From Opeltia flavorubescens (taxonomy: Eukaryota; Ascomycota; Lecanoromycetes; Teloschistales; Teloschistaceae): 64,000 nt of DNA. Location: NCBI GenBank assembly GCA_000442125.1, contig KE546968.1, positions 1,521,795-1,585,794 on the forward strand, written 5' to 3'. Position numbers and translations under genes: made by a program. The notes beneath the pieces are model-generated. The model made no database searches. It was not told where the DNA came from and saw nothing but the letters and a program-made list of their open reading frames with translations. Shown in pieces: positions 8,596-54,078 of the stretch (positions within the stretch are counted from its first letter, which is position 1; each line of letters begins with the position of its first letter).

Positions 8596-9505
8596 TTATG
8601 GCCAAAGCTCTTCCTTCGTCCATTCTCCTTTCCCATCGTTTGCATCCTCTACTAATGTGTATTTGAGTCTTCGTGCCGTCGCCGGATCGGAAATGTCTGT
8701 TTGCTCCACCTCATTAGGCTTTATGACCACGACCCGAAAATTACTTCTTGCAACTGGGTCTTCTAGATCCCCGACTTTCTGTCCAAGCTGATGATCCTGA
8801 TCAGGTTCGCCCTCTACAGGGCTGCCAGGCGGAGGGTTTTTCCATGAACCTGAATATCCGAAGTCAGATCCTGAACAGTAAGCGCGAACGAACAATCATA
8901 CCTCTCATGCCAGGACTGCAATTTCCGAAATGTCCTGTCAACTCCCTTCCCCAGCTCCAGTCTGCTTCCTTATCCTCCCCACCCTCTACAATCCTCATCC
9001 GACCTCCAACCTCACTCTTCACAGTCCTCACTCCACTGCTTTCCTCTTGACCCTCAATATCCGGGGCCACAACAAACGCCGTCCCTTTAATCCTCCACTG
9101 TGTCCCCTTCTCCTTCACCCAGAACGCCGCCTCGCAAGGGCCCCCACCACCGCTGCCCTGCACTTGTTCATCCTTCGCTGCCTTCCCGGCGCTACTCGCA
9201 AACAACTCCCCAACTTTCTGCATCCGCACGTCTGTGGTGAATGTTGGCATATCGGAGTCGTAAACCCGAGGATTCTTGGGCGCATCGTTGTGCTTGTTCT
9301 CGGGCAATTGGGACCACATGCCGCGGTATATGCAGTAGCGTAGGCGAGGTACGTAGTCGGTGGTGGGTTTCTTCGAACCGGTAGAAGAGCTGGGGGCGAG
9401 GGAGGCGAAGACAAATTCTGGGGAGGGCATAGAGGAGACATGGGACTCGAAGGTGGAGCGCCAGGGCGCTGGAGGGGAGGGACGGTGGTGGGTTGTTGAG
9501 GACAT
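8596..9505 (-). CDS. Pyridoxamine 5'-phosphate oxidase-like FMN-binding protein (Alr4036 type)
   Basis: Two exons on the minus strand, 9505..8902 and 8849..8596, with a 52-nt GTATGA-CAG intron, giving 285 residues. The protein follows the fungal Alr4036-type FMN-binding split-barrel family: an APWRSTFESHV start, a YCIYRGMW strand, a DMPTFTTDVRMQK strand typical of the FMN site, and a GTQWRIKGTAFVV strand. After the intron comes a WKNPPPGSP loop and a long C-terminal segment ending near ELWP. Reading through the intron without splicing loses the WKNPPPG block, which is why the splice is preferred. The family binds FMN and probably acts as an oxidase or reductase; the true substrate is unknown, and the protein need not take part in vitamin B6 synthesis. 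It shares a 416-nt divergent promoter with the next gene. Confidence 0.88.
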
Positions 9506-9921: not shown

Positions 9922-12637
9922 ATGCCATTGACGAGCATGACTTCTCCTTCGGTGTCGTCTGAGCTTCCTGATTTCCTCTTCAATGGTTGGCAATTTCGTC
10001 ACAATGATATTTCTGAAGCGAAGGCACGTGGTGATCTTCAGGGTTGGACTGTTTCCTCTCTTTGTTCAGCCTATCTCAAGTACCAGTTGGACAGATACCT
10101 TCAAGCCAACGACCAAATTTCCCCTCCTTCGTTGAGCTCCGTCTCCATTGCACAAATACTGAAGACACTCAAGCTGTCTACCAACCTGCAAGCAGATCTC
10201 AAGACACTCGCAGAAAGCCTGGACACGACAGCACTCCGGCGAATTCTGCAAGATCCTAGGACCCCCTATCCCATCTTGCGTTTGCTAGATGCTTTGCCTT
10301 CCGCTACCATCAAAGGTAGCACCGGTGACCGCAAGATTGTTGACATTGACGAGACAGTACTCGCCGGCGAACAATATATCCGGGCACAGAAGTCAAAGTG
10401 TGGCGATGATTTCCTTGTCACGTTGGACGATCTTTCGAGGCTATTGGGACCTCCGGTGAATGGGGTCATTGACATACAACGCGAAACTCCCCCCAAAGGT
10501 GGGTTCGAATTCCTAGATCAAAAAAGGAAATCCTTCCTACAGATTCAAGGCACTCATGTTTCCTTCATCAAGACCTTCAATCGAGTCACCCGAGGTGTTT
10601 TGAAAGGTCTCGACTGGAGTCATTGTTTTGTTGCCGGAGGTATGATCGTGAATACCCTCCTTCATTGCGATCCCTCTCAAGATGGTCAAGGCGATGTCCA
10701 TGAATGTGACATCGACTTGTATCTTTATGACCTTACACCTGAAGAGGCGAATGGTAAGGTCAAGGAAATCTACCGGATTTGGGTCATAAACAATACGATC
10801 GACGGTACCAATGGCATAAATTCGAATTTCTCAAAAGAACACATTGTGGTAAAGAATGCTAAGACCATCAGCTTCATTCCCACATTCCCACGCCGACGCA
10901 TTCAGATCATTCTCAAGCTTGTCCCCTCTCCATTGGACATCCTTCTGAACATTGATCTCAATGCTTGTGCTCTTGGCTTCGATGGATCTCGGGTACTAAT
11001 GCTTCCACGCTGCGCTCGGGCCATCGAAACTGGCTATTCAGTGTTCACCATGGATTTGATATGGGGGCACCATCTTGGCAATAGGCGCGAATCACAAGAG
11101 ATTCGAATCTTCAAATACGCCGATCGAGGATTTGGCCTACGAATCTTACCTTCGTATGCAAAATCACTAGAGAAGGAGAGCCGTAACGGTGAGCTGCGAT
11201 CTGGTGAGGCACAGAAAGATGTGACAGGTCCTACAAGAGTATACGAAGGTGAACCAGGGCTAAAGACGCTCAGGCGTGTCGCCTGGATTGCTAGATATTT
11301 CGTGGACTGGTGCTATTATAGACATCCAACTTTCTTGGTAAAGGAGGAACGCCAACATCCTTACAATGCCGTTCGCACGACCATTACTAACAGGTCGCCT
11401 ATCACTGTCATTACGAATAAGACCACCTTGGATGAAGATTTGCTAAGTAATGAAAGTTCGGCAACGTACGACGAGGATATCCGACCGTTAATAACACTTC
11501 GCGCGATCGCTGGATACCAGTCTAGTGGAGCATTCCCCCATGGTCGCAAGAGCCTCGGTGTATTTGAGCTGTTCATGCGTCGTTGCGAGGCATGGCGACT
11601 GGACGCGATAGGCCTTGCTAAGTACGTTGGATCGTTGTTCTGATGATTCCGATATATCGATATCATTCGCAGATAAACTAATTCTCTTGATTGCTAGGCT
11701 CCGTATTAGATTGACAGAAGTCGACTATGACGATATGGGAAACTATGACGGTCTTCCCCAGTATGCATGGGGTCCTTATTTTAAGGATGCATACATGGAG
11801 AGTTATGCTGATACTATTAATCGTTACAACGACAAGCTGTTTTTCATTTTGAGATGTACGGTGGGGGCGAAGTTGAATATTGATCCAATGCAGGGCGGAT
11901 ATCATAATTATCTGACACGCCGTATCCGTCGCTTGGTTGTCGGTCCCGACCTGGACTCTGTGCAAGCCAAGCAGTTGACAATGCCCCTTCTCGTTCCCAT
12001 GGACCTCGAAACATACATCACCAACGAATTGGCAGACCGATACGACGGGCTACCGGAGGGTATCCTACCTAAGATTCTGATACCGGCTCACGATCCGTCA
12101 AAACATGATGTCGCTACAGCGACTATGCCTACCTTGCAAGATACCGTTACTGAAAAGGGCAATTTACGCTATTGGCTTGTCAGTAATAAGAGCATGTGGG
12201 CTCGTCAACACCGCGTGGTGGACGAGGTGTCAGAAATCTTAGCAGCCCTCTTCGACTGGTTTGTCCCAAGGGATGAGCTCTCGGACAATGATGACTCGTC
12301 CAACAGCAGCCCGAGAAAGAGCTACGCGACTGATGATCCTCGCTGTATCTGGTACCTTGCAGAGATCCTGCGACGGCGTCTCATCCTCCCTGACGAAACT
12401 GGTACGTCTGAGCGGGGTCAAACTCTGCCTATGAGGGAAGCTCGTCTCTTCCGCGCATGGGTATTGGAACGTCCACCTCCAATACCGAAATCTTATTTCG
12501 TTGAGGGAGATGAGAAGATACAGAAATTCCAAAAAGCGATGGCGAAGATACGGCATGTTAAAGATGAGCTTTTCTGGAAGGATGGGGATGAGGGGACTTG
12601 GGATCTTGAGGAGGGTGTGCCGGTTTGGCAGGCTTGA
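9922..12637 (+). CDS. Large fungal protein with nucleotidyltransferase-like GG..DxD signature
   Basis: Two exons, 9922..11621 and 11698..12637, with a 76-nt intron in phase 2, give 879 residues. The ATG at 9922 has an A at -3 and is the first ATG of the frame. The middle of the protein (about 238-270) reads AGGMIVNTLL, then an acidic loop, then CDIDLYLY. This order of a glycine-rich turn, a helix and a DxD strand is the hallmark of the polymerase-beta nucleotidyltransferase fold, where the two Asp bind metal. No known enzyme of that fold (poly(A) polymerase, CCA enzyme, 2-5A synthetase) matches elsewhere. The C-terminal 300 residues are helical, with a poorly conserved acidic Ser-rich linker. 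I recognise it only as a conserved-looking fungal protein of unknown role; the catalytic reading is inference. Confidence 0.8.
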
Positions 12638-16135: not shown

Positions 16136-16399
16136 TTATCCAAATAACTCTGTGCTGATCTCATCTAAAGTCACTCCCTCGTTTTGTCGACTATCTCTTG
16201 TCTCATTCCTACCTCCCTCGTTCTCAGGACTGTCATTTGGAAGCCCTCTCAACCGTCTCCACAACCGATATAAAGAGTGTCTGACTATGTAAAGAATCCC
16301 TGAGATCAAAAGTATGAATAAGACAGGGCCAAGGGTACCGCCAAATATTTTCCACCTTCGGCGAGCGCTGTTGTCTGAACTGGCGACTAGGAATTCCAT
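16136..16399 (-). CDS. Small single-pass membrane protein (87 aa)
   Basis: ATG-started frame of 87 residues. An 11-residue polar start and a basic RRR are followed by one strongly hydrophobic helix at about 18-39. After it come LYRLWRRLR, which is positive and likely cytosolic, and a polar acidic tail. No signal peptide is separate from this helix. It is one of nine small membrane proteins in the window with the same plan. The helix is long enough to span a bilayer and no stop interrupts it, which supports coding. No family is known and the subcellular membrane cannot be told. Confidence 0.5.
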   Translation of the reverse strand: MEFLVASSDNSARRRWKIFGGTLGPVLFILLISGILYIVRHSLYRLWRRLRGLPNDSPENEGGRNETRDSRQNEGVTLDEISTELFG

Positions 16400-17123: not shown

Positions 17124-17336
17124 TCAGGATCTGCGCGTTTTGGTAATAATGGCCCATGCTGCCAAAACCAGAAGAGGAAGGCCGACGAGTAGTGCGAGAA
17201 CGATGATTATCATCTTCATTGGCTTTGGCCGTCGCTCGGAATGCTCTGTAGGCTTGCTAAATCTGCTGCTGGTTGTGGAGGCCGAAGATTTGTACCGAAT
17301 GAGGATATCTGGCTGTCTTTGAGGAGCCGACGGCAT
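17124..17336 (-). CDS. Small single-pass membrane protein (70 aa)
   Basis: ATG-started frame of 70 residues. The first 40 are polar, rich in Ser, Pro and Arg, with no signal peptide. A hydrophobic helix at about 42-65 follows, then the short basic end TKTRRS. It looks like a tail-anchored or type III membrane microprotein. It lies just upstream of the 87-residue protein on the same strand, about 0.7 kb away. An overlapping minus-strand frame (17257-17568) shares the region in another phase but has no membrane helix. No homologue is recognised. Confidence 0.5.
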   Translation of the reverse strand: MPSAPQRQPDILIRYKSSASTTSSRFSKPTEHSERRPKPMKMIIIVLALLVGLPLLVLAAWAIITKTRRS

Positions 17337-37586: not shown

Positions 37587-37916
37587 ATGCCACCGTCACC
37601 GTCCCCCCTATCCCAACGTTCCAACTTCGACCTCTCACAGGTTTCCACGCTGGTCATACTGCTGTATGTGGCGACGCCTTGTGTGATTTTTCTCTTTGGC
37701 TTGCCGGTTGCGATTTGGTTGGTTTTCAGGTGGAGGAGGAAGAGGAGGGAGGAGAGGGAGGGGGAGAAGGAGAAGGGGGGTGTGGGGATGGAGGTTGTCA
37801 GGGGAGGGGGGTCGGGTGGGGAGGGGAAGGGGAAGGGGAAGGGGAAGGGGGGGTATGGGAAGGGGAAAGTGTTGCACAATACACCGAGCACGGAGGGGAT
37901 GTTGAGGGGAGGCTGA
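37587..37916 (+). CDS. Small single-pass membrane protein with Gly/Lys-rich tail (109 aa)
   Basis: ATG-started frame of 109 residues. A Pro/Ser-rich N-terminus of about 19 residues is followed by a hydrophobic segment at 20-48, long for one helix, and then RWRRKRREER. The C-terminal 50 residues are Gly, Lys and Glu in a low-complexity pattern, encoded by an almost pure purine strand. There is no signal peptide before the helix, and the positive-inside rule predicts N-out, C-in. Like the other small membrane proteins here, it passes from a C-rich to a G-rich coding strand. Part of the tail may be a by-product of the G-rich tract. No homologue is known. Confidence 0.5.
   Translation: MPPSPSPLSQRSNFDLSQVSTLVILLYVATPCVIFLFGLPVAIWLVFRWRRKRREEREGEKEKGGVGMEVVRGGGSGGEGKGKGKGKGGYGKGKVLHNTPSTEGMLRGG
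37790..37865 (+). repeat. G-rich purine tract with G-quadruplex potential
   Basis: Repeats of GGGGAA and GGGGAAGGGG with almost no pyrimidines on the plus strand, inside the tail of the 109-residue membrane protein. Many runs of four or more G are spaced by one to three bases. Confidence 0.8.
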
Positions 37917-40517: not shown

Positions 40518-41051
40518 CTACCCACATCCCCATATCTCCATCCCCTTCACCATTTCCCCCCTCATCCCCTCTCGCTCAAAAACCGGACTCCTCAACCCCG
40601 GCAGCAGAGAACTCACACTCTCCGTATCCTCTCCATCCTCATCATCCTCTCCGTCTCCCTTTCCAGCACTCAACGCGAGAAAATCTCCCTCATCATCTTC
40701 AAAAACGCTACCAACCGCAAAGCCATCCCCGAATTCACTGAGACTACCCACCTCAAAAACATCACCCAGATCCGCGATTTGGTGCGCGTATCGCAGCGCG
40801 TCAACCCCTTCACTAGGCATAGGCAGAGCAATGGCTCCCATTTCTAATCCCGTATCTGCTTCGGAGAAAGTAATCACCGAAATGCGGTGACGAAGGAATT
40901 TTCTGTATAAGAGATACATGAGTGTGAGGAGAATGGCGAAGAGAGCGATAAGGGCGAGGATTATGAATACTGTGGAAGCGGTGCCGGTTGGCAGGAGGGT
41001 TTTATTTGTGCTTTTGGATGAATTTTGGGGGGAGGGGTGAAGGATTGCCAT
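40518..41051 (-). CDS. Small single-pass membrane protein with acidic tail (177 aa)
   Basis: ATG at 41051, 177 residues; the frame is open further upstream, but the codons there look like a leader. A 26-residue Ser/Thr/Asn-rich N-terminus leads into a strong helix at about 27-49, then YRKFLRHR (basic, cytosolic side). A folded-looking region with an ITFSEADTGLEMGAIALP segment follows, and the last 80 residues are acidic with Gly and Ser. It is the largest of the nine small membrane proteins. A divergent neighbour (41456, plus strand) starts 404 nt away. Confidence 0.58.
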   Translation of the reverse strand: MAILHPSPQNSSKSTNKTLLPTGTASTVFIILALIALFAILLTLMYLLYRKFLRHRISVITFSEADTGLEMGAIALPMPSEGVDALRYAHQIADLGDVFEVGSLSEFGDGFAVGSVFEDDEGDFLALSAGKGDGEDDEDGEDTESVSSLLPGLRSPVFEREGMRGEMVKGMEIWGCG

Positions 41052-47159: not shown

Positions 47160-47781
47160 TTTACTTGGGGGAGGGGGGTGGGTGGGACATGGACTCTTAT
47201 TGTCTGTCCATCGCATCGCACAAAGAGTCCATATTGATTTGACGATGGAAAGTCCGTTCAGACTGAAGAGAGATACCCTACTGTTTATATGAGGTGCAAG
47301 GGAGAAATTCCCCAGCCCCTTTATCGTTATCGTTATGTTGAAAAAAACGAGTGTCTACCCACTGGTATACTTCATTATCTAGGTTTCGAACTATGACTAT
47401 TATCTAAGCCACCCATAATTTATCTTAAAATTGATTACCATTCCTGAGGAGGCTTGGTCGGCGACAGAAATCATGTTAGCATGAGTTGAGATATCACGCT
47501 TCCAAACTGCGTAGGGCTAGCCCTGTGGATCAGCGACAGCTGACAACAGTAGAAGCTCTCCATGCCTGAATAATTTCCTGACTCACCATTGTGCAGTGCA
47601 TGCTGACAGGCGAGCCAGGAATTTCATCACAGAAAGAAAGCTCATAATCCTGCCTGTCTCGCGGCTGAAGCTGGCTCCAGTCCTACGACATATCATCCGC
47701 CAATTAATCCCTCTTCGAACAGCCCATAAAAACTCTACTAACTCTCCATTGATATACACACCGTTCAGACCATTTGCTGTC
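47160..47781. other. Intergenic region; frame open into the next gene from 47521
   Basis: About 620 nt after CHO2. From 47521 a frame stays open, without ATG, into the Arc1-like gene. Part of it, near 47660-47740, encodes basic and hydrophobic residues. Otherwise no gene or repeat. Confidence 0.5.
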
Positions 47782-49143
47782 ATGTCGGCGCAGACATCCT
47801 CATCTTCTGCGCTGCTGGATTTTTTGAGACAAAGCTACCCTTCAGCAGTCTCACCATCGACTTCCGAGGCCGACCTTCCAGCTCTTTCACATCAGCTCTT
47901 CCCCTCTACATCTTACTCCGACAACGAAAAGGTTGAGACATCTCAATGGCTGACCACCTCATCTCGCCTTGCGGCAACAGACGAAGATGAAGCCAAAGTT
48001 GCGGAACGTCTTGGGTCCCTTAATATTCACCTCTCCACCCGTACAACTCTACTAGGCTCAAAGCCATCCGTAGCCGACGTCGTTCTTTATTACAGATTAG
48101 CACCAGCAGTCAAATCATGGTCGACAGAGGAGAGGACCGGACAACATGGCTATCATCACATCGTCCGATTCGTCGACTTCGTACAGAGTTCGCCGTTATT
48201 CGGGCTTTCGATCAAAGACGAGGACAAGGTGGCTATTGATCTCAACGATGTCAAATTCGTGCACAAGCCATTAGACGCCAAGGAAGAAAAGGAACGCAAG
48301 AAGAAAGAGAAGGCTGCTGCAGCTGCTGCCGATGACAATCAGAAAACATTGGCTGTGGGCAAGGGAAAAGAGGAGGGTAGCAGCAAGCCGGGCAAGAAAG
48401 AGCAGGCTCGAGATGCCGCCGCAAAAGTAGAAGAGAAGGTCAAAGGTGCGATTGCAGGTGATGGCGCCCAACAGTCCAAGAAGGAAAAGAAGGAGAAACA
48501 ACCAAAGCAGCAAAAGCAACCGGCTAAAGAGACACCTCTTTCACCATGCCTCATCGATCTTAGGGTAGGACACATTCTCAAAGCGGAGAATCATCCAAAC
48601 GCAGACTCGTTGTATGTCTCCACTATAGCTTGCGGTGACGCGCCGGGCACCGACAACACTTCGGAATACGAAGGTCAGGTCGCACGTACAGTGTGCTCTG
48701 GTCTGAATGGCCTTGTGCCACTGGAGGAAATGCAAGGGCGGAAAATTATTGCTGTATGCAACCTGAAACCAGTCACTATGCGTGGAATCAAATCAGCTGC
48801 AATGGTTCTCGCAGCGTCGCCACGCCCGAAGGATGGAGAAGCAGACCATCATGGAGGACCAGTCGAGCTTGTTAGTCCACCGACAGATGCCAAGGCTGGG
48901 GAGAGGGTGATATTTGAAGGTTGGCCTGGGGAGCCAGAAGGGATCTTGAACCCGAAAAAAAAAGTTTGGGAAACACTGCAACCTGGGTTTACCACGACGA
49001 CGGCATTGGAGGTCGGTTTTGATGCTAGTGTTGTTTCGCAGCTTCAAGGCGAAGGACAGGCGCAGAAGCCAACGGGTAAGCTGATTACTAGCAGTGGAGG
49101 CACATGTACGGTGAAGAGTTTAGAAAATGCTACGGTCAGGTGA
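47782..49143 (+). CDS. ARC1: tRNA-binding aminoacyl-tRNA synthetase cofactor (Arc1/EMAPII type)
   Basis: ATG at 47782, 453 residues, single exon. Residues 1-150 resemble the GST-like N-terminal domain that docks synthetases. About 155-245 is a Lys/Ala/Glu-rich linker, highly charged like the tRNA-binding middle of Arc1. Residues 253-453 form the EMAPII-like OB-fold (a DLRVGHILKAENHPNADSLY start and SGLNGLVPLEEMQGR, CNLKPVTMRGIKS strands) plus its C-terminal extension. In yeast, Arc1 gathers methionyl- and glutamyl-tRNA synthetases in the cytosol and helps tRNA delivery. The start was chosen as the first ATG; the frame is open upstream through a basic stretch that could be a mitochondrial presequence if a non-ATG codon is used. 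The family call is firm; which synthetases bind is inferred. Confidence 0.9.
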   Translation: MSAQTSSSSALLDFLRQSYPSAVSPSTSEADLPALSHQLFPSTSYSDNEKVETSQWLTTSSRLAATDEDEAKVAERLGSLNIHLSTRTTLLGSKPSVADVVLYYRLAPAVKSWSTEERTGQHGYHHIVRFVDFVQSSPLFGLSIKDEDKVAIDLNDVKFVHKPLDAKEEKERKKKEKAAAAAADDNQKTLAVGKGKEEGSSKPGKKEQARDAAAKVEEKVKGAIAGDGAQQSKKEKKEKQPKQQKQPAKETPLSPCLIDLRVGHILKAENHPNADSLYVSTIACGDAPGTDNTSEYEGQVARTVCSGLNGLVPLEEMQGRKIIAVCNLKPVTMRGIKSAAMVLAASPRPKDGEADHHGGPVELVSPPTDAKAGERVIFEGWPGEPEGILNPKKKVWETLQPGFTTTTALEVGFDASVVSQLQGEGQAQKPTGKLITSSGGTCTVKSLENATVR

Positions 49144-49641
49144 ATGTCCATTTCTACCAAAGGAAGCTTTCTCCCCAATATCAATGGTGTGATCACAATC
49201 AAGCCCGATTTTCACAACAGGCTGCGATAAGCCTGATTCCTCGGAGGGCACTGTTCACGTATCCAGGCTAGAAAGAAAAGCTATCGTCAACAGCATTACT
49301 GTACGATGCTTAAAAGCCCCTGGTCAGCGCCTGTGTCGCCAATGTCAGATTTACAATACGCCAGCAACAGTGTCTTTCTCAACCGAATGAAGCATACAAA
49401 TACTGTCGCCCCTTCCTCTTTGTTCCTACCCAACTTTCTTTGTCTCTTCTTTCCCTCACACCTTCCAGAACCAAGCCTGATAAAGCCCCCTTGATAGATC
49501 TTAACTCACTAATAACTTTTCTCTAACCCTTTCAATCGAAGTTTCAGTTTCTCTACATCAAACACACTTGAGGAAGCCATACTCAAATATTTCGCCTCAG
49601 ACAAGTTAAAAAAACAAGAAGAATCTCAGAACATCAAAATC
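49144..49641. other. Intergenic region upstream of the microprotein trio
   Basis: About 500 nt after the Arc1-like gene. The last 200 nt are C/T-rich and then A-rich before the ATG at 49642, a layout repeated before the other two microproteins. A frame at 49306-49494 is not supported. Confidence 0.5.
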
Positions 49642-49833
49642 ATGCCAGCCATCCCATCCACCGACGGCTCAGCTTTCAGCGCCAGCAACGATGGTACGGG
49701 TAGTGGTACTAGCAATAACTTCGACGTCAAGCAAGTTGCTATCTATACCGTGGCTATTATTGGAGGTTCGATTCTTCTGGTTGCGGTTGTTGTGGGGGTT
49801 GTGAGGGTTGTTAGGAGGAGGAGGGGGGTGTAG
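49642..49833 (+). CDS. Tandem membrane microprotein 1 (63 aa)
   Basis: ATG at 49642 in good context, 63 residues. A polar N-terminus of 29 residues, rich in Ser, Asn, Gly and Asp, precedes KQVAIYTV, then a helix at about 33-57 (Val/Ile/Gly) and a terminal VRRRRGV. It has no signal peptide of the cleavable kind. N-out, C-in topology is predicted from the Arg run. The KQxxIYTV entry to the helix and the basic end match microproteins 2 and 3, which lie 859 and 1696 nt downstream. Unknown function; possible roles (membrane-protein partner, regulator) are guesses. Confidence 0.6.
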   Translation: MPAIPSTDGSAFSASNDGTGSGTSNNFDVKQVAIYTVAIIGGSILLVAVVVGVVRVVRRRRGV

Positions 49834-50500
49834 GGTTTGAGGTTTGAGGTTTGGGGGTATCTAGTAGGTATTCATGAGAACGGAGAGAGGAGTAAGAGCG
49901 ATTATGAATGTTTGTTTTTTCGTTGAAATGGTTTTGTGAAACTTGAGCGTGGGTTTCGAGGATGTGCTTTTTTGTGTGTATCATCCCTTTTTTTCTTTCT
50001 TTTTTTCTTTCACGTGCCTATACTATGGAGGAATTGGGATGAACGCTCGTTACCAAATATGTAACAATACTGCAGGTCAGCATATCACCCCCGTTGCTGT
50101 TTCGAACCCATTCATCTCTCAAAAGCCGGTCGATGTACATGGTTCTTTGTGACTCCACGCCCCTGGCGCATGCTTCATATAGCGTGCCCTTTGTCCTCCA
50201 CTTTGTCCTTCTCTCCCAAGACTGCGTCTCCTCATCCCCACATTGCACCTGATTCCCTTTCTGCCCTTTTTCACACAGCTTCTTCCAAATTATCATCCGT
50301 TACCACTGTACTTGATTACAACCTTACAATCGCCGGTCGATTCCTCCAACTCACCAGCATAGGCATCACAGATTTAATTCCACCTCGCCGGATTCCACAT
50401 CTACAAAAACCACAGCTCGAAATAAAAAATTCTCGCTGGTCACCAACCACATACCTCCAAAATCATCACCCCCCTCAAAAAAACCAACATACAACAAAAG
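49834..50500. other. Intergenic region between microproteins 1 and 2
   Basis: 667 nt. It starts G/T-rich and ends C-rich and then A-rich. It contains a T-rich tract near 49988-50011 followed by CACGTG. No gene was seen in it; a frame at 49943-50152 is not convincing. Confidence 0.5.
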
Positions 50501-50698
50501 ATGGCACCATCCCCCCTTCCCCTTCCCCTCGCCCCTCTCCAAACACGCGATTTCCACGTCTCAAACTCAACAATCACGACGCATAAGGTTGTCATCTATG
50601 GTATTGGAATTTTGATCGTTGTGGCTATATTGGCGGTTCTGGTAGCTTGGATTGCGGGGAAGATTAGGAGGAGGGGGAAGCCGGTGGCGGATCCGTAG
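50501..50698 (+). CDS. Tandem membrane microprotein 2 (65 aa)
   Basis: ATG at 50501, preceded by A-rich leader sequence, 65 residues. A Pro/Leu/Ser N-terminus with an NST glycosylation sequon at about 22-24 is followed by HKVVIYGI, a helix at about 30-53 and GKIRRRGKPVADP. The frame is C-rich in the first 60 nt and G-rich in the last 60 nt. It shares with microproteins 1 and 3 the K/H-x-V/L-x-I-Y pattern right at the membrane boundary. The sequon would be outside the membrane if N-out topology holds, which agrees with the positive-inside prediction. Confidence 0.58.
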   Translation: MAPSPLPLPLAPLQTRDFHVSNSTITTHKVVIYGIGILIVVAILAVLVAWIAGKIRRRGKPVADP

Positions 50699-51337
50699 GG
50701 GGGTTTTTGTTGGATTGGTGGTACGAGGGGAGGAGGGGAAGGGAGGAGAACAGAGGAGGCTTTTTTAGGGTTTGAAGTAGGCAAACATGGAACGGGGTTG
50801 AGTCGTGGAGTACTGAACAGGGGGAGAGGATATGTGTCCGTAATTGCGCTGTGGTACTCCTGTCTGCAGAGTCAATATCTTACCTGTGTTTGTAGGCTGT
50901 CACGTGGGTTCCCATGGAAGGGAGGGAGGGAAGAGAGAAAGAGAGAAAGCATATGGAATGGCTTTGTCCCCTTTCCACGATCCACTTTTTGAATAAACTC
51001 CTTTGTGCCAATGTTCTTTCGCTCGTTCTGCCACATTCTCTTTCCCTTTGTCGTACTTTCCACCTATGGCTAGAACAAACTATTTTTCACATCAGTTTGA
51101 CTGTCTTCCTTCCTCGAATCTCATCTCACTCGCTCGTTCATACGTACTTTTCTACATCGCTTTTTTCCGGACGCAATCAAAATTAATTTTTCTTTTGATA
51201 TACTCTTGCCATCATCCAATAAACAATAAACTCATCCCTGGAGGATCACCCCCTTTTCTCTCTCTCCACCAAGAATCGTCAATATCATCTAAAAAACAGA
51301 GAAATCCACTCTACCATTACACACAATCCCCATAAAG
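50699..51337. other. Intergenic region between microproteins 2 and 3
   Basis: 639 nt with the same layout as the previous gap: G-rich at the start, C/T-rich near the end. It includes a CACGTG at about 50902. No gene is supported. Confidence 0.5.
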
Positions 51338-51493
51338 ATGTCGCCTCTCCCCCTAACGACCACCCCTCAGGGTAAGAAATTACTAATCTACACCATTATC
51401 GGCTTGTCTGTAACGTTAGGGCTGGTGTTCCTAGCGGCGGTGGTACATTATTGGAGGAGGAGAAGGAGGGGTGGGATGGGTGCTGGGGTTTAG
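51338..51493 (+). CDS. Tandem membrane microprotein 3 (51 aa)
   Basis: ATG at 51338 after the A-rich stretch CCCCATAAAG, stop at 51491-51493. A Pro/Thr-rich N-terminus of 11 residues leads into GKKLLIYTI, a helix at about 16-38, then YWRRRRRGG and a short Gly-rich end. The shortest of the nine small membrane proteins. Taken alone its coding status would be uncertain; matching the other two members of the trio in motif, order, spacing and strand raises confidence. It is not similar to any named family known to me. Confidence 0.5.
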   Translation: MSPLPLTTTPQGKKLLIYTIIGLSVTLGLVFLAAVVHYWRRRRRGGMGAGV

Positions 51494-52395: not shown

Positions 52396-54078
52396 CTACT
52401 GTAGAGCACGTCGGTTTTGACTCGCTGATGCCCGCATCTGTCGAAGTTCGTCGAGGGTCTCATTGAGCCTGATCAGATACTTGGTCGATGCACTGTCCGG
52501 TTCGTCATCTTTTAGGCTTGGATGACGTCCGCCTTCATTGATGTAGCGGTTGCAATGGTCGTAGAACTTATTACACCTGATTCCGTGGTAGTATCCTGTA
52601 ATATATTCCTGATCTGGGTACTTGTAGTGAAGTTGGTACATCTCACAACTCGACAGCCCATTCGCATGCCGAAAGCCTTCTACGATATTGTCCCAGTTTC
52701 CGTCCGTGAGTATGAGGTGACACAGATCCAGGTGTTTCAGCCTCGGGAGGCCAAGAAATAGCAGAGTGACGAGCTCACGGTAGGAGGCGGATAATCCACG
52801 TAGTCTTAGACTGGTCAAATGCAGGCTCCACCATTCCGTGACAGGAGGGAAGACTTGGTGATAGTCGTAGAACCGTATACCATTTCGATATCGACATATT
52901 TCAAATGGAAAAACGAGTGAAAGCGTTCGTAGTACCGGCGCATCACGGAAAAGGGCCTGGAGGCCATCAAGACAAAATATGACATCCCCCGTCGAAAACT
53001 TTGCGCCAAGATTATCTGCGAGTTCGATCTCGAGGACTTGGATTCCTTTTAGAAGAGTATTCAGCTGTGTCCGAACGGGCCATCTGCTCAAGTTCCAAAA
53101 GGCAGGCGGAATCGTACCATCTGGCATTACTAATTTTGATGGCTGTTTTCTAGCAGACCTTAGCAAATGTATTACCTTGAAGGCCTCAAAGCTGCCATCG
53201 GAGATACCAAGCTTACGCAGCTGTGTGATGCCTGGATTAGCGGACGGATCAACCATGGTGTATGGCAGCAGTCGAGTGAGGGGCCAGGACCGAGCGACGG
53301 GTGGTGTCCCCAATTTGCTAGGTGCATCGGAATCTGCATCAATGAAAGCTTGGACCTCGACATAGACAGCTTCTTCTTCTTCTATATCCTTTTTCTGCAT
53401 GGCGACATTGCCTTTCTCGGTGCAATCATCATCATCATCATGCCAATCGCCCAGTAAACCGCTTTGGCTGTCGTTGGTGCTCTTGATTTCATTCTCCCTG
53501 CTTGTGGAGGCAAATGCATATGGTATAAAATACGCTCTCCATGCGCAGGCAATAGTCACCGACTCGAGTGTACCGATGGCTTCCAAACCCTTGCGAGCCC
53601 TGGCAAACCACCTCTTGCTGAAAAGATTCCTCTGTTCCCGCACCAATATCTTGTGATGGACTAAACCATCGGTCAACGTCAGATCACGACGAAATAGAGC
53701 AAGCACTTGCTGCTGAGACATTTTTTCATCGAGCTTCGTATATTCTGGCTCAAGTGCTTGGAATCCGTGGTCGTTCCGAAAGAAGCGCTGAGCTCCGATC
53801 TGCTCGAAAAGAGCCAAGAAGTATTGTTCTTGGCGTAAGTTGACGAATTGTGCTAGGTCATATACGACATGCCTGACTGATTGACTCAGGATGGGATGTT
53901 GGGTGATGCCGTCAAAGACCTCCATATCCTTATCGCGTGGAGAGATATGCACGGTTTTGAAATCGAGAACCTTGAGACCGAGTCCTGCCAGCTGTCTGCA
54001 AACGAGGCGAGCCTGCTTGACATCTTGATCTGGTAGGTTCCCAAGGATCTGAATTATCAGCTCATTCGGTAGGTCCAT
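52396..54078 (-). CDS. F-box protein, 560 aa
   Basis: Single-exon protein of 560 residues starting MDLPNELIIQILGNLPDQDVKQARLVCRQ, an F-box with the usual LP-x-E-x-I-x-x-I-L opening. The F-box covers about 1-42 and should bind Skp1 in an SCF ubiquitin ligase. The rest has Leu-rich strands in the C-terminal half (for example LTSLRLRGL, LKHLDLCHL) typical of fungal F-box/LRR-like proteins. An acidic loop with Asp and Glu runs interrupts the middle (about 205-240). The target cannot be inferred. Such genes are numerous and fast-evolving in filamentous ascomycetes. Confidence 0.85.
   Translation of the reverse strand: MDLPNELIIQILGNLPDQDVKQARLVCRQLAGLGLKVLDFKTVHISPRDKDMEVFDGITQHPILSQSVRHVVYDLAQFVNLRQEQYFLALFEQIGAQRFFRNDHGFQALEPEYTKLDEKMSQQQVLALFRRDLTLTDGLVHHKILVREQRNLFSKRWFARARKGLEAIGTLESVTIACAWRAYFIPYAFASTSRENEIKSTNDSQSGLLGDWHDDDDDCTEKGNVAMQKKDIEEEEAVYVEVQAFIDADSDAPSKLGTPPVARSWPLTRLLPYTMVDPSANPGITQLRKLGISDGSFEAFKVIHLLRSARKQPSKLVMPDGTIPPAFWNLSRWPVRTQLNTLLKGIQVLEIELADNLGAKFSTGDVIFCLDGLQALFRDAPVLRTLSLVFPFEICRYRNGIRFYDYHQVFPPVTEWWSLHLTSLRLRGLSASYRELVTLLFLGLPRLKHLDLCHLILTDGNWDNIVEGFRHANGLSSCEMYQLHYKYPDQEYITGYYHGIRCNKFYDHCNRYINEGGRHPSLKDDEPDSASTKYLIRLNETLDELRQMRASASQNRRALQ

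Follow-up and report, generated by a model that had tools for sequence, protein, structure and literature searches.

Three neighbouring candidate genes for single-pass membrane microproteins in Opeltia flavorubescens, and a possible fourth member upstream

Three small open reading frames, here called P1, P2 and P3, follow one another on the + strand of the window, by which is meant the whole stretch of 64,000 nucleotides that was analysed (C4:1521795-1585794), belonging to a genome of 34.4 Mb in 23 contigs. Their neighbours are, on one side, a gene whose product has tRNA_bind and Arc1p_N-like domains (47596-49143) and, on the other, an F-box gene on the opposite strand (52396-54078); a candidate fourth member of the set, P4, lies about 12 kb upstream. 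The features are as follows.

37587-37916, + strand: P4, candidate fourth member, 109 aa; short S/P-rich N-terminus, one helix, RWRRKRRE and a long K/G/E-rich tail, preceded by a 226-nt ATG-free leader.
49390-49641, + strand: leader of P1, 252 nt without ATG; G 0.09-0.11 over the final 250 nt and A 0.42 over the final 100 nt.
49642-49833, + strand: P1, 63 aa; 33 residues (S/T/G-rich) before IY, helix from IY (residues 34-35), tail RVVRRRRGV (+5).
50173-50500, + strand: leader of P2, 328 nt without ATG; G 0.06-0.11 over the final 250 nt.
50501-50698, + strand: P2, 65 aa; the N-terminus is P/S-rich and contains a single N-S-T sequon, the helix starts at IY and the tail is GKIRRRGKPVADP (+4).
51069-51337, + strand: leader of P3, 269 nt without ATG; G 0.09 over the final 250 nt.
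51338-51493, + strand: P3, 51 aa; IY is preceded by 16 residues and opens the helix, and the tail is YWRRRRRGGMGAGV (+5).

Order, strand and architecture of P1-P3 can be read directly from the DNA: the + strand ATG-to-stop frames of 63, 65 and 51 codons reported in a preliminary description, with starts 859 and 837 nt apart, were recovered with the same coordinates, strand, lengths and distances, and the strings KQVAIYTV (P1), HKVVIYGI (P2) and KKLLIYTI (P3) are all present in the translations. Each product contains, as had been proposed, one strong helix with IY at its entry and an arginine run behind it, the distance from IY to RRR being 22, 22 and 21 residues in P1, P2 and P3, respectively; to call the N-termini short and Ser/Thr/Pro-rich is fair, S, T and P together making up 0.33, 0.39 and 0.44 of the residues before IY. 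The hexamer CACGTG occurs at 50011-50016 and 50901-50906, that is, 490 and 437 nt upstream of the P2 and P3 starts, and is absent between 45610 and 50011; there being 15 copies in the window, this placement before P2 and P3 may well be due to chance.

Judged from their sequence features, P1-P3 are quite probably real single-exon small genes for single-pass membrane proteins, and they look like genes of an ordinary kind. The background against which they were compared comprises 264 kb, namely the 64-kb window and twenty 10-kb stretches sampled from the same genome; it contains 949 ATG frames of 40-90 aa, 48 of them with a hydrophobic 19-mer (KD of at least 1.8); in 11 of these the 19-mer begins no earlier than residue 9 and is followed by a basic tail (at least three K/R). 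Ranked by the length of the ATG-free leader, P2, P3 and P1 take the first three places among these 11 frames (328, 269 and 252 nt; the next has 189 nt), and they account for three of the 12 frames, among 622 small frames outside long ORFs, whose ATG-free leader reaches 250 nt; for the 51 long ORFs, counted from the first ATG of each, the median ATG-free leader is 89 nt, so that a long ATG-free leader does not generally distinguish genes in this sample. The leaders of P1-P3 are first C/T-rich and then A-rich, with G at 0.06-0.11, an A occupies position -3 in all three cases, and a splice scan of the three units gave no candidate introns. Synonymous codon choice barely separates genes from other frames in this DNA and favours coding for none of the three, P3 (-0.085 bits per codon) falling below about 99.5% of 407 gene chunks.

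The hydrophobic stretch is found in the ATG frame only: the best 19-residue KD values are 2.71, 3.19 and 2.37 for P1, P2 and P3, and in the other two frames they do not exceed 1.47, 0.31 and 0.58, respectively. Composition-preserving shuffles of the frames attained the hydropathy observed, while keeping at least three quarters of the length, in 0, 0 and 2 of 3000 trials; this comparison is uninformative, because most other helix-bearing frames pass it too (27 of the 42 others tested, at 1/300 or less, or about 28-30 of 45 with P1-P3 included, three of the 48 helix-bearing frames having been dropped for N or short flanks).

The composition of the locus brings in a different explanation, according to which P1-P3 are chance frames, and not genes, in intergenic DNA with an unusual switch from a C-rich to a G-rich strand. 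A scan of 51,540 positions for sharp changes of this kind gave 12 sites over threshold, of which the three sharpest lie at 50595 (in P2), 51395 (in P3) and 37660 (in P4, the third), all of them inside frames of this build, whereas P1 is not among the 12 sites, and at eight of the other nine, which were inspected, no frame built like P1-P4 was seen. DNA with such a switch encodes P, S and T and then V, L, G and R, and a helix-like stretch is also present in 45 other small frames of the 949, most of which, as said, beat their own composition null. The long ATG-free leaders and the confinement of the helix to the ATG frame speak against an accidental origin, as does the finding that the third sharpest switch, too, falls in a single-pass frame whose leader is long; chance frames are in our judgement an improbable account of the locus. 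Together with P4, P1-P3 would probably represent four genuine small genes, each with its own leader.

Whether these genes are also related to one another is a separate question. The strings that the preliminary description took as a shared motif are there, as stated above, while their excess over chance is weak: 79 of 2000 shuffles do as well as the 8-column block or better (59 of 2000 if the entry is shuffled separately from the rest), blocks of 5, 6 and 10 columns are reached by 247-412 of 2000, and an alignment of P1-P3 anchored on RRR is equalled by 188 of 5000. Among the pairwise similarities, that of P1 and P3 is clear of segment shuffles (27 of 2000), unlike those of P1 and P2 (285 of 2000) and of P2 and P3 (389 of 2000); when the cuts were shifted slightly in a rerun, the counts were 30, 400 and 403 in the same order. 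The corresponding scores are 44, 40 and 38, and comparable values are found among the 45 other helix-bearing small frames, where the frame at 11678-11905 scores 45 against P3 and one other frame scores 39 against P2.

Three further single-pass frames of the window were used as controls in tests of summed similarity.

16136-16399, - strand: 87 aa, single-pass, ATG-free leader of 189 nt; no Pfam family over its cut-off.
17124-17336, - strand: 70 aa, single-pass, ATG-free leader of 162 nt; no Pfam family over its cut-off.
40518-41051, - strand: 177 aa, single-pass; short S/T/P N-terminus, helix, basic stretch and long acidic tail; residues 1-62 taken as control.

The summed score of P1-P3 is reached by 3 of 1000 shuffles and that of the three control membrane frames by 7 of 1000, from which it follows that the shuffle null is too easy. 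At the level of DNA, neither the leaders (pairwise scores reached by 179, 55 and 76 of 200 shuffles) nor the 3' flanks (28, 142 and 60 of 200) show kinship; the DNA of the frames themselves beats dinucleotide shuffles, which reach its scores in 0, 4 and 2 of 200 cases, and this similarity was not counted as kinship because a dinucleotide null loses the C-to-G switch within each frame. No second copy of P1, P2 or P3 was found among the best-scoring candidates in the same genome, and a DNA pattern for the motif, which fits P3 and neither P1 (owing to its GTG) nor P2 (owing to its His), gave 2456 matches over the genome against 2464 for the reversed control, that is, no enrichment.

P4, which is absent from the preliminary description, offers the strongest hint that a real, if loose, family exists in this part of the genome. 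With its 109 aa it exceeds the 90-aa limit of the small-frame count, and a wider filter also missed it, its best helix window ending early. When its residues 1-62 are aligned to P1, P2 and P3, the scores are reached by 28, 35 and 85 of 2000 segment shuffles; P1-P3 taken with P4 give z 6.24 (0 of 1000 shuffles), to be compared with z 4.08, 4.85 and 4.00 (1, 0 and 2 of 1000) for P1-P3 taken with each of the three controls and with z 2.20 (28 of 1000) for P4 taken with the controls. P4 lacks the IY motif and has LLY instead, deeper in the helix; it matches no Pfam family over its cut-off, and elsewhere in the genome two weak places were found (E 0.025 and 0.085). The set of such genes may thus, on this similarity, be larger than three. 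The proposal that P1-P3 arose by tandem duplication followed by divergence is only suggestive: it is favoured by the common strand, the regular spacing and the similarity of P1 and P3, whereas the other two pairs stay within the shuffles and the flanking DNA is unrelated. A family relationship is unproven but plausible, its strong form, in which motif-sharing tandem duplicates would constitute a new family, being more tentative; that these genes are distant paralogues of one another seems to us an even question.

If they are not paralogues, P1-P3 could be young, lineage-specific proteins, each born independently from T/G-rich intergenic DNA and with little or no defined function. Passages of PMC7005711 indicate that thymine-rich intergenic DNA tends to yield membrane helices, and the second halves of the three frames are C-poor (0.09-0.11), with G+T at 0.70-0.77; the lack of detected relatives in the same genome and the weak codon preference point in the same direction. 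De novo transmembrane proto-genes of budding yeast treated in those passages, such as YBR196C-A, are likewise short, with one helix encoded by T/G-rich DNA; what sets P1-P3 apart is that three frames of similar build recur at regular distances, each behind a clear leader. Several such births would be required to yield three neighbours on the same strand with well-formed leaders and nearly constant spacing from IY to RRR, and we regard this origin as unlikely, if worth keeping in mind.

The preferred reading, that of small membrane-protein genes of an ordinary kind, was also compared with known families. In a Pfam profile search no family exceeded its cut-off for P1-P3. The nearest approach is that of P3 to COX14 (PF14880), with 20.6 bits and E 0.00038 against a cut-off of 25, a resemblance between its helix region and model positions 15-45 that was judged to be due to chance. 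The idea that P3 belongs to the COX14-like assembly factors of cytochrome oxidase, with P1 and P2 as its relatives, is one to which we attach hardly any credence, and it is largely refuted already: a better COX14 lies on contig C14, where the profile passes its cut-off in two pieces read as exons, P3 is only the third-best place in the genome (18.8 bits), and the COX14 profile does not match P1 or P2.

Membership of the Pmp1/Pmp2 family (PMP1_2, PF08114) was likewise rejected, none of P1-P3 matching it at E of 5 or less; the same profile has no match in the genome at E of 10 or less. Pmp1 of yeast is a very small protein with a single helix and a basic C-terminal tail. P1-P3 resemble yeast Pmp1 and Pmp2 in all of these respects, with a possible binding of lipid and of a partner, and differ from them in their longer N-terminus and in a tail that is a plain arginine run. 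In the portions of PMC10498586 that were available, Pmp1 is described as having 38 residues, as a possible regulator of the plasma-membrane proton pump and as co-localising with Pma1, and work on the binding of phosphatidylserine by a Pmp1 fragment is cited there. Pmp3 (PF01679) and other conserved small membrane proteins of fungi are likewise of about 50-60 aa and encoded by small genes; Pmp3 is not among the matches of P1-P3, and it passes its cut-off at three places elsewhere in the genome.

Searches of solved structures gave five weak matches for P3 alone (best E 0.44) and 16 for a profile of P1-P3 (chemokine receptor helices first, best E 0.019), both read as generic likeness between helices. 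An AlphaFold prediction from the three-row alignment gave one long helix for P1, at residues 24-61, with a mean pLDDT of 69.4 and a value of 91 at residues 41-50; a predicted single helix is what would be expected for any such protein. Among viral contigs, 55 pattern matches were collected and none was confirmed. In the titles and abstract openings that were searched, a collection with most subscription journals outside it, and in the passages cited here, no description of such a set was found, which is weak evidence.

For topology, membrane, partner and function we infer from the build of the proteins and from studies of other systems. With the helix taken as 21 residues from IY, its GRAVY is 2.60, 2.83 and 2.11 in P1, P2 and P3, and the tails behind it have 9, 13 and 14 residues with net charges of +5, +4 and +5; the net charge of the N-termini ranges from -2 to +2. 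A single helix near the C-terminus, as also predicted in P1, with a short basic tail is the build of a tail-anchored protein, and P1-P3 might be proteins of the peroxisome or of the mitochondrial outer membrane, with a cytosolic N-terminus and the basic tail as targeting signal; indeed, a tail charge of +4.9 sends ACBD5 to peroxisomes in mammalian cells (from passages of PMC5450235). The same passages give the helices of ER tail-anchored proteins in yeast a GRAVY above 1.75, unlike those of mitochondria and peroxisomes, and P1-P3, at 2.11-2.83, fall on the ER side; the positive-inside rule, as presented in sections of PMC13261788, would moreover place the arginines in the cytosol and the N-terminus outside. 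We therefore prefer an N-out topology in the ER or plasma membrane to an N-in tail anchor, which seems to us rather improbable; the charge argument for N-out is weakened because the N-terminus of P3 carries +2.

The mechanism that would follow from an N-out topology can be outlined with the help of the same sections of PMC13261788. According to these, a helix at the C-terminus does not leave the ribosome tunnel before termination, EMC is an efficient route of insertion for N-exo proteins whose tails are short, and positive charges tend to remain on the cytosolic side; mitochondrial tail-anchored proteins are poor clients of EMC, in part on account of their positive flanks. Because only 9-14 residues follow the helix, translation of P1-P3 would stop with the helix still inside the ribosome tunnel, so that insertion would come afterwards, post-translationally, by an ER insertase; the short N-terminus would cross the membrane and the arginine cluster would stay in the cytosol (N-out, C-in). 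The arginines could then bind acidic lipids of the membrane, and the helix could lie against a larger membrane protein and thereby adjust how stable or active that protein is, in the manner proposed for yeast Pmp1 and the proton pump Pma1. The whole of this reading, namely small single-pass genes, post-translational N-out/C-in insertion and a Pmp1-like accessory role beside a larger membrane protein, is drawn by analogy and put forward tentatively, with a confidence somewhat short of even.

A bolder extension, which we consider doubtful, would see in P1-P4 an undescribed, fast-diverging fungal family of single-pass microproteins, with at least four genes within 14 kb, unified by the length of the helix, its aromatic entry and its arginine exit, and with the tandem members as interchangeable subunits tuning one shared membrane partner. 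Should the locus hold a tandem set of similar one-helix proteins, it would offer a clean test of duplication against repeated birth, as well as a place to ask whether the helix-entry motif selects the membrane partner; should it be ordinary, it would be a reminder that motif sharing among short membrane helices is easily overrated, since helices taken as controls come through shuffle tests of this kind as well. According to passages of PMC7394265, genes this short are frequently overlooked in the annotation of fungal genomes; on L026, a 43-aa frame at 8754-8885 (+ strand), with a hydrophobic stretch and the end CLTCGRGGGRRRR, is another possible membrane microprotein.
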